DNA from: an uncultured Bacteroidales bacterium
GTDB taxonomy: Bacteria; Bacteroidota; Bacteroidia; Bacteroidales; VadinHA17
DNA length: 33,270 nt
Assembly: GCA_937871625.1 (NCBI GenBank)
Contig: CALMRD010000041.1
Span: 1-33,270, forward strand
Reading direction: 5' to 3'
In this document: piece by piece, positions 31,733 to 33,270 of the stretch
Layout of the letters: each line of letters starts with the position of its first letter
Numbering within the stretch: position 1 is the stretch's first letter
Made by a program: the position numbers and the translations under genes
Notes under the pieces: generated by a model
What the model saw: only the letters and a program-made list of their open reading frames with translations
What the model was told of the DNA's origin: nothing
Database searches by the model: none

Positions 31733-31806
31733 AGTCCCATAGCTCAGTTGGTTAGAGCGCTACACTGATAATGTAGAGGTCCCCAGTTCAACTCTGGGTG
31801 GGACTA
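31733..31806 (+). tRNA. tRNA-Ile(GAT)
   Basis: AGTCCCA…TGGGACT acceptor pairing, D-arm TAGCTCAGTTGGTTAGAGC, anticodon arm CTACA-CTGATAA-TGTAG, T-arm CCCAG-TTCAACT-CTGGG; 74 nt, no encoded CCA. Confidence 0.95.
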
Positions 31807-31810
31807 CGGG

Positions 31811-31867
31811 ATTTTCGATTTCCGATTGTCGATTTTCGATTGAAAAATCAAATCGCAAATCGATAAT
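31811..31867. repeat. ATTTTCGATT-word direct/inverted repeat spacer
   Basis: ATTTTCGATT at 31811-31820 and 31832-31841, followed by inverted AATCAAATCGCAAATCGATAAT. Confidence 0.6.
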
Positions 31868-31873
31868 GTAATT

Positions 31874-31931
31874 GGGGATTTAGCTCAGTTGGTCAGAGCA
31901 TCCCGACACTTGTGTCGGGAGGGTCAAGGGG
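31874..31931 (+). pseudogene. Broken tRNA-Ala copy 1: intact D-arm, anticodon arm replaced by palindrome TCCCGACACTTGTGTCGGGA, truncated in T-arm
   Basis: GGGGATTTAGCTCAGTTGGTCAGAGCA and GGGTCAAGGG identical to the functional tRNA-Ala at 31956; palindrome at 31901-31920 stands where CCTGCCTTGCACGCAGG should be. Confidence 0.85.
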
Positions 31932-31955
31932 TTGAATTCAGTTCTTTACAACAAT

Positions 31956-32029
31956 GGGGATTTAGCTCAGTTGGTCAGAGCACCTGCCTTGCACGCAGGG
32001 GGTCAAGGGTTCGACTCCCTTAATCTCCA
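31956..32029 (+). tRNA. tRNA-Ala(TGC)
   Basis: GGGGATT…AATCTCC acceptor, anticodon arm CCTGC-CTTGCAC-GCAGG, T-arm AAGGG-TTCGACT-CCCTT; 74 nt. Confidence 0.95.
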
Positions 32030-32033
32030 CAGG

Positions 32034-32069
32034 TACCCGGTATATGAAGAGTATGCCGGGTATTTTTTT
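32034..32069 (+). terminator. Rho-independent terminator after tRNA-Ala
   Basis: TACCCGGTATA-TGAAGAG-TATGCCGGGTA (11 bp with one G:U) followed by T7. Confidence 0.88.
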
Positions 32070-32120
32070 ACCGGGAAGTTGGTCAGAGCATCCCGACACT
32101 TGTGTCAGGAGGGTCAAGGG

Positions 32121-32150
32121 CCCTGACGTTCCGCGCAGCGGAAGTCAGGG
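32121..32150. repeat. REP-like hairpin CCCTGACgTTCCGC-GCA-GCGGAAGTCAGGG
   Basis: 13 paired bases with one bulge, inside tRNA-Ala copy 2. Confidence 0.8.
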
Positions 32151-32171
32151 TGCTGACCGCAAGCGTCAGCA
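32151..32171. repeat. REP-like hairpin TGCTGAC-CGCAAGC-GTCAGCA
   Basis: 7-bp outer stem plus GC/GC inner pairing, immediately adjacent to the previous hairpin. Confidence 0.75.
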
Positions 32172-32330
32172 TTCGACTCCCTTAATCTCCACAAAGAGTC
32201 TTCAGAGATGAGGGCTTTTCTTTTGTTATACCTCTCACTCCGATCTTCCGTCCGTCAAAAAAAATGATGTTGGGTTGAATAAAATGCAACAAATTTTACT
32301 GATTGCAGTTATATAAAATACCCTAAATAG

Positions 32331-32913: not shown

Positions 32914-33024
32914 CACCCGCTTTTGAAGAAAAGCATGTTCCCTGAAAGAGAGGTTTGACAGATTGGACTCGCGGATTTTGCCCTGAGAGGGGCAGAAAAA
33001 AAGTGAAAAAACTTTCATGAAAAG

Positions 33025-33056
33025 TTTGGTGAGGAGAAAAGAGTTCTGTATCTTTG
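33025..33056 (+). promoter_or_regulatory. rRNA operon promoter P2: TTTG-N20-TATCTTTG
   Basis: TTTG 33025-33028 and TATCTTTG 33049-33056 with 20-nt spacer; ~165 nt before 16S. Confidence 0.8.
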
Positions 33057-33219
33057 TCGTCCCTTGCCTCAAAAAATGAGGAGGGAATGAGTTCTTTGAT
33101 TTAATGATGAAGTAGTAGCACACAGGCGAGAGAGATCTCGCCAAAAACCTAGCGATTTTGTTTGAGTTTTTGAAGAGACCGGATTGATCTTCAAAAGATA
33201 TTTAAAGTACAAATATTAC

Positions 33220-33270
33220 AATGAAGAGTTTGATCCTGGCTCAGGATGAACGCTAGCGGGAGGCTTAACA
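33220..33270 (+). rRNA. rrs: 16S rRNA, 5' end (partial, runs off the window)
   Basis: AATGAAGAGTTTGATCCTGGCTCAGGATGAACGCTAGCGGGAGGCTTAACA is the canonical 16S 5' end, of Bacteroidetes type. Confidence 0.98.

Follow-up and report, generated by a model that had tools for sequence, protein, structure and literature searches.

Hairpin-marked tRNA-Ala copies of a Bacteroidales bacterium as probable remnants of tRNA-gene elements carrying a small GIY-YIG endonuclease

In the genome of an uncultured Bacteroidales bacterium, an intact tRNA-Ala(TGC) gene stands between two broken copies in which hairpins replace or interrupt arms of the tRNA. We asked how such an array could have arisen. The stretch of DNA analysed, hereafter the window, is 33,270 nt long and stops at a contig end of the 411-contig assembly G000 (G numbers denote genomes, L numbers loci and C numbers contigs).

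The tRNA-Ala array and its relatives

The features of the array are listed in Table 1. According to the initial annotation, the anticodon arm of both broken copies had been exchanged for a hairpin, and the sequence and the repeat analysis agree with this to the base. Copy 1 is composed of GGGGATTTAGCTCAGTTGGTCAGAGCA, TCCCGACACTTGTGTCGGGA (31901-31920) and GGGTCAAGGG and diverges from tRNA-Ala right after the last of these, at the CAAGGG border where a loss of homology had been claimed. Copy 2, read from 32077, consists of AGTTGGTCAGAGCA, TCCCGACACTTGTGTCAGGA, GGGTCAAGGG, CCCTGACGTTCCGCGCAGCGGAAGTCAGGG, TGCTGACCGCAAGCGTCAGCA and TTCGACTCCCTTAATCTCCAC; it starts in the D-loop, at about 32077, and lacks the 5′ strand of the acceptor stem and the 5′ half of the D-arm. 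The hairpin that replaces the 17-nt anticodon arm in both copies, H1, measures 20 nt (TCCCGACACTTGTGTC(G/A)GGA) and is flanked by GAGCA and GGGTC. The single substitution reported for its second copy is present, as are the two further hairpins of copy 2, hp2 and hp3, placed between CAAGGG and TTCGACT, the T-stem/T-loop border. The block common to both copies spans 44 nt with 98 % identity, which excludes chance resemblance.

Table 1. Features of the tRNA-Ala array and its surroundings, in positions of the window.
Feature	Coordinates	Strand	Remarks
Intact tRNA-Ile(GAT)	31733..31807	+	ARAGORN; Rfam RF00005; neighbour of the array
Broken copy 1 (5′ copy), upstream of intact tRNA-Ala	31874..31930	+	tRNA-Ala 5′ part to T-stem; H1 replaces the anticodon arm
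Hairpin H1, first copy	31901..31920	+	Stands for the 17-nt anticodon arm; arrangement common to many genomes
Spacer between copy 1 and intact tRNA-Ala	31931..31955	+	Contains GTTCTTTACA, boxA-like by resemblance only
Intact tRNA-Ala(TGC)	31956..32030	+	ARAGORN and Rfam
Terminator-like hairpin and T-run 3′ of intact tRNA-Ala	32034..32069	+	Common to G020; similar one in G005
Broken copy 2 (3′ copy), downstream of intact tRNA-Ala	32077..32193	+	D-loop to 3′ end; H1 and two further hairpins
Hairpin H1, second copy (TCCCGACACTTGTGTCAGGA)	32091..32110	+	One substitution vs first copy
Hairpin hp2 of the T-loop-type double hairpin (CCCTGACGTTCCGCGCAGCGGAAGTCAGGG)	32121..32150	+	
Hairpin hp3 of the T-loop-type double hairpin (TGCTGACCGCAAGCGTCAGCA)	32151..32171	+	
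T-loop and acceptor 3′ end kept in copy 2	32172..32193	+	100 % identical to intact tRNA-Ala (repeat family D3)
Native terminator of the tRNA-Ala locus, standing 3′ of copy 2	32193..32224	+	Closely similar sequence behind the intact gene in relatives without copy 2

Around the array, ARAGORN and Rfam called tRNA-Ile and the intact tRNA-Ala only; neither broken copy was called as a tRNA by either tool, and neither has the full cloverleaf with acceptor stem and anticodon. A full tRNA fold is impossible for either of them, the 3′ part being missing from copy 1 and the 5′ end from copy 2. Beyond tRNA and rRNA, Rfam returned sub-threshold matches only. The type of spacer that follows copy 1 recurs in G010, G012, G017 and G018, either separating tandem copies or preceding the intact gene. 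The stretch between tRNA-Ile and copy 1 (31808-31873) consists of consecutive repeats of the GATTTTCGATT/AATCGAAAATC type, which are also intergenic at C246 and C283. At the end of the window (32980-33270) a 16S rRNA gene begins at 33218; the tRNA-Ile/tRNA-Ala pair lies upstream of it, and the contig ends at an rRNA operon.

Within G000, neither hp2 nor hp3 has a second copy, and H1 itself is found at the array only; H1-like palindromes with 2-3 mismatches occur at five other places outside tRNA genes. The array recurs among 80 related genomes. At the tRNA-Ala locus, genomes of the same genus have zero, one, two or three upstream copies, with downstream copies present or absent, and broken copies of tRNA-Val, tRNA-Lys and tRNA-Leu adjoin the matching intact genes in these genomes. 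A gapped pattern for the H1-substituted anticodon arm matched 20 of the 80 relatives (reversed control, 0), and its relaxed version 16 of the 22 same-genus genomes. GTDB genomes yielded at least 120 stretches with H1-substituted arms, isolates included, nearly all from Bacteroidota and neighbouring phyla. Searches with the exact H1 junction in viral contigs, and with the exact junction plus the tRNA left flank in genome contigs, gave no hits because flank and loop vary, and it was the gapped pattern that succeeded. The search of plasmids returned ordinary tRNA and rRNA-region matches only.

The double hairpin was found in eight of the 80 relatives, including members of other families of the order. 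In tRNA-Ala, tRNA-Lys, tRNA-Leu, tRNA-Thr and tRNA-Gly copies it occupies the T-stem/T-loop border, and in a single tRNA-Val copy the D-loop. Copies combining H1 with a T-loop palindrome, as in copy 2 of the window, recur as well (L125, L200 and L289). The palindromes are not unique to this locus, a finding that would have refuted the initial reading had it been otherwise; they sit at exactly these tRNA arms in many genomes and in several tRNA genes, and they therefore behave as mobile sequences that target stem-loop sites. The three hairpins were initially regarded as one family. We distinguish two kinds, H1 accompanying anticodon-arm elements and the double hairpin accompanying T-loop elements, and the differing insertion sites together with the differing endonuclease subfamilies (see below) rule out a single family.

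Some of the loci display further variation. In six loci from genus members (L020, L024, L025, L026, L027 and L033), the H1 loop holds a further palindrome, ATCCGCCAGCCGGCGGAT or a close variant, so that palindromes seem to be nested. Hairpin pairs of unrelated sequence occupy the T-loop region of hp2 and hp3 in L275 (G328:C7), L277 and L278, with the architecture kept and the sequence not. A 42.6 kb contig classed as viral (L270, IMGVR_UViG_3300048038_000024) contains four H1-type copies around tRNA-Lys(ttt) and the apparent 3′ end of a GIY-YIG gene; it could be a vehicle, or host flank.

Small GIY-YIG genes lie near many hairpin-marked copies

Many downstream broken copies are located about 290-350 bp behind the intact tRNA, and the gap is filled by a small ORF matching the Pfam GIY-YIG domain (PF01541, E 3e-12 to 4e-16 in seven examples). 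No GIY-YIG ORF or recognisable endonuclease fragment was found around the array in the window, and the link to the endonuclease runs through its relatives. We quantified this link in both directions. The forward set comprised 120 loci (of the at least 120; 797 kb) chosen by the H1 pattern alone. There, 76 of 77 GIY-YIG domain matches are within 600 bp of H1, a density 391 times that of the rest of the same loci, and all 106 pairings of H1 with GIY-YIG are on the same strand. About half of these loci have no nearby GIY-YIG match, and many of those end at contig ends. The reverse set consisted of 54 distinct small GIY-YIG ORFs selected by protein similarity, with duplicates removed; for 43 of them a tRNA gene on the same strand is less than 500 bp away, and for none (0/54) is a tRNA gene on the opposite strand that close, against a background of 23 among 1102 random positions.

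The C-termini or stop codons of the endonucleases are often located within the broken tRNA and its hairpin, with the proteins ending in ..GSEHPD, ..SSVG or ..GPDE..LSGC. The last of these ends belongs to a second endonuclease subfamily and is encoded by the double hairpin, in intact elements elsewhere by the stretch corresponding to hp2 (L100 and L274). As the C-termini are encoded in the hairpin-marked copies, H1 and the double hairpin represent the ends of two kinds of element, and copy 2 bears both. An upstream anticodon-arm form that still has the nuclease ORF exists at tRNA-Gly in two other genomes (L119 and L133) and is likely the parent form of copy 1.

G000 itself has small GIY-YIG genes adjoining broken tRNA copies on two other contigs. 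On C399, two broken copies with an H1-like anticodon-arm hairpin adjoin the nuclease gene, and C338 carries a D-loop-type element with a nuclease gene at tRNA-Pro (L261, reverse strand). In the latter, a cluster of nested palindromes in the D-loop of the partial tRNA-Pro copy is followed by the GIY-YIG gene, and the 5′ end of the intact tRNA-Pro supplies the codons for the C-terminus of the protein (..RGIAQSG, then the stop). A different arrangement is seen in L283 (G074:C31), where tandem ORF-less copies of the tRNA-Pro(ggg) 3′ end with a T-loop hairpin surround two identical GIY-YIG genes; this looks like a non-autonomous form amplifying.

The endonuclease is nearly a bare GIY-YIG domain with a median length of 83 residues. 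The active-site residues R, H and K are present in all 104 sequences and E in 103 of the 104. The dN/dS values of close pairs range from 0.06 to 0.35 and the protein is under purifying selection. The fold is predicted with confidence (pLDDT 92). By sequence profile, the closest solved relatives are UPF0213 proteins (1zg2, 1ywl), followed by SLX1 (profile E 6.6e-6). Foldseek matched UPF0213 (top), Slx1 (E 0.07) and the I-TevI catalytic domain, all of them weakly by E-value.

Insertion sites are precise and have empty counterparts

The length of the tRNA 3′ end retained in 50 broken 3′ copies beside an intact gene is bimodal, either 30-32 nt or 14-21 nt, with scarcely any values between. The longer class begins just behind the anticodon arm and the shorter one in the T-loop. 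Empty and occupied sites could be paired for G020/G000 (copy 1), G001/G011 and G014/G012, all of them concerning ORF-less copies within the genus. G020 lacks copy 1, and the leader before its intact tRNA-Ala is nearly the same as the leader before copy 1 in the window.

The terminators tell of the downstream side. Genus members that lack copy 2 have the terminator native to tRNA-Ala (agagtcttcag.aatgagggct) behind the intact gene. In G000 and G020 it stands behind broken copy 2, and the intact genes are followed by another terminator; the one at 32034..32069 differs from that native to the locus in most relatives. This shift would be expected if the element brought its own tRNA 3′ half together with a terminator.

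The H1 loops vary in sequence, but their pairing is kept and the stems covary. Across 136 distinct sequences, the first inner pair of H1 is paired in 124 (shuffles: mean 87, maximum 98) and the second in 111 (shuffles: mean 57, maximum 75). On a tree of the protein-defined endonuclease set, weakly resolved and built on short proteins, the arm occupied changes 4 times against 10.3 in shuffles, and the tRNA isotype changes 12 times. The arm thus tends to be kept while the isotype changes; one supported clade, found in tRNA-Gly, Met, Asp and Thr genes, has the T-loop as its site.

On these results, we take the array to be the probable remains of parasites of tRNA genes, namely of mobile elements, widespread in Bacteroidota, with a gene for a small GIY-YIG endonuclease. 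A complete element, as seen elsewhere in the phylum, measures about 300-400 bp and comprises the gene of a GIY-YIG endonuclease of about 83 residues and a duplicate of one tRNA part, with a palindrome at the junction that replaces one tRNA arm or lies inside it. The element sits exactly at a tRNA stem-loop and supplies its own tRNA half; in this way one intact tRNA gene is restored, and next to it remains a broken copy marked by a hairpin. H1 is the mark of the anticodon-arm subfamily and the double hairpin that of the T-loop subfamily. Copy 1 would then be an endonuclease-less upstream form of the anticodon-arm kind, and copy 2 an endonuclease-less downstream remnant bearing the marks of both kinds.

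As to the mechanism, intronless homing by break repair appears the likeliest, judging from the architecture and the precedent of T4 SegB. The nuclease would cut one arm of an element-free tRNA gene, or a hairpin or cruciform formed by the gene, and repair of the break from an element-bearing locus would copy in the element with the missing tRNA half. A point against this explanation is that occupied loci keep, in their intact tRNA, the arm that should be the target of the nuclease, and self-cutting must therefore somehow be limited. As a guess, the palindrome might shield the broken copy against renewed cutting.

We weighed several other explanations. A serious rival, though rather unlikely, is that the elements spread by hairpin-directed transposition, in which a structure-specific GIY-YIG nuclease would recognise stem-loops at the target (tRNA arms extruded as hairpins) as well as at the end of the element (H1 or the double hairpin), following the logic of REP or IS200/IS605 with another enzyme. 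The protein, scarcely more than a catalytic domain (median 83 aa) and without a separate DNA-binding domain, would suit such a role, as would SLX1, a branched-DNA nuclease, being among the nearest solved relatives after UPF0213. The preservation of palindrome structure despite sequence change and the nesting of palindromes in palindromes point the same way. However, we saw no sign of excision or of free element forms, and the ORF is flanked by direct repeats of tRNA segments, for which break repair accounts without special ends. A bolder version, which we likewise hold to be doubtful, has one small GIY-YIG protein recognising DNA stem-loops; its targets would be tRNA arms, and the element's own substitute hairpin would serve as its end. 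This would make the elements a new class of minimal bacterial mobile element, spreading via the tRNA genes of a whole phylum along a route that depends on hairpins and differs from both classical homing and known transposition.

Retention of the broken copies as functional tRNA-like RNAs, for instance as decoys or as leaders controlling the tRNA operon, is improbable. The upstream copies do lie between the promoter region and the intact tRNA, often in tandem, and their stems covary, but covariation fits the role of an element end as well. Moreover, presence, number, tRNA identity and truncation of the copies vary among close relatives, and the copies lack one tRNA end.

Still less credible is the reading of the initial annotation, in which REP-like palindromes are spread by a RAYT/Y1 transposase. 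The palindromes are indeed short, recurrent and precisely inserted at stem-loops, and this part of the reading stands, since they recur at exactly these tRNA arms in several tRNA genes. The link to REP/RAYT found no support: the RAYT/IS200-like TnpA proposed as partner (Y1_Tnp, PF01797) had 0 matches in G000 with control genomes positive, and the gene linked to H1 encodes a small GIY-YIG endonuclease.

The anticodon loop and the T-loop are known crossover places of integrases, and an intact tRNA with its 3′ end repeated downstream resembles the scar of an integrative element whose tyrosine integrase took the tRNA for its attachment site. We regard this origin as very improbable, as 5′ copies are present besides 3′ copies, neither the repeated palindrome nor the GIY-YIG link belongs to integrase biology, the intervals are merely about 45-400 bp, and the density of GIY-YIG matches around H1 and their proximity to tRNA genes speak against it. 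An assembly artefact, or random tandem duplication with decay, would suit the fragmented assembly and the contig end at the rRNA operon, but can be practically dismissed given the same architecture in many independent genomes, isolates included, with conserved junctions and empty-site pairs.

If the reading as tRNA-gene elements is true, many of the small GIY-YIG genes in Bacteroidota parasitise tRNA genes, and there is an explanation for a kind of pseudo-tRNA that is common yet apparently undescribed. It would also account for tandem tRNA remnants and for odd protein tails encoded by tRNA sequence. Selfish DNA would here attack essential genes and yet stay nearly harmless by rebuilding them, and the elements would offer a system to ask whether hairpins of tRNA genes in DNA are targeted by nucleases. 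We found no published description of these elements in the open-access literature, and their novelty is provisional, as the search covered open papers only.

Comparison with known systems

Among homing endonucleases, the elements resemble SegB of phage T4 and other free-standing GIY-YIG enzymes in that a nuclease gene stands amid tRNA genes. Within such genes, SegB cuts at the motif RAWTSGAAC (PMC13096335), the complement of which is the T-loop consensus GTTCSAWTY; this T-loop-like cut motif is that of SegB. It also promotes tandem amplification of a tRNA region (PMC2988022, PMC13096335). In the extracts of these papers, SegB lies between phage tRNA genes and no splitting or rebuilding of a tRNA and no hairpin-substituted copy is described. 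Unlike SegB, the present nuclease is nearly a bare domain and resides in bacterial chromosomes. With respect to the features that define the class of homing endonucleases, the elements have an intact GIY-YIG active site and are inserted precisely relative to empty sites; the array in the window holds remnants only, with no endonuclease gene at the locus.

As to the closest solved relatives of the nuclease, our searches turned up no tRNA link of the solved UPF0213 proteins (1zg2, 1ywl), and SLX1, unlike the present nuclease, has an extra zinc finger and a partner, SLX4. The elements share with REP/BIME sequences and their RAYTs the recurrence of short palindromes at defined sites, but no RAYT gene was found here, and the palindrome goes with a GIY-YIG gene and with tRNA arms. 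In the double-hairpin elements of fungal mitochondria, two adjacent hairpins behave as an insertion unit. The likeness to them is one of architecture; in the present elements, when intact, the double hairpin is coding sequence for the C-terminal end of the endonuclease.

For the supply of a replacement gene end, the nearest analogue is found in the mobile endonuclease ORFs (mORFs) of fungal mitochondria, known from atp6 in Allomyces and from atp6, atp9, cox2 and nad3 in Glomus (PMC3630166). As excerpted from that paper, an mORF element inserts in a gene and supplies it with a substitute end, and the original end is left stranded downstream of the endonuclease ORF. A new gene end with the native one stranded is also what we found here, both in the terminators of the window and in the repeats of tRNA 3′ end and terminator around the ORFs. 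The mORFs differ in having protein-coding targets and LAGLIDADG or GIY-YIG ORFs, and the same excerpts describe for them neither a palindrome at the junction nor a specificity for tRNA arms (PMC3630166).
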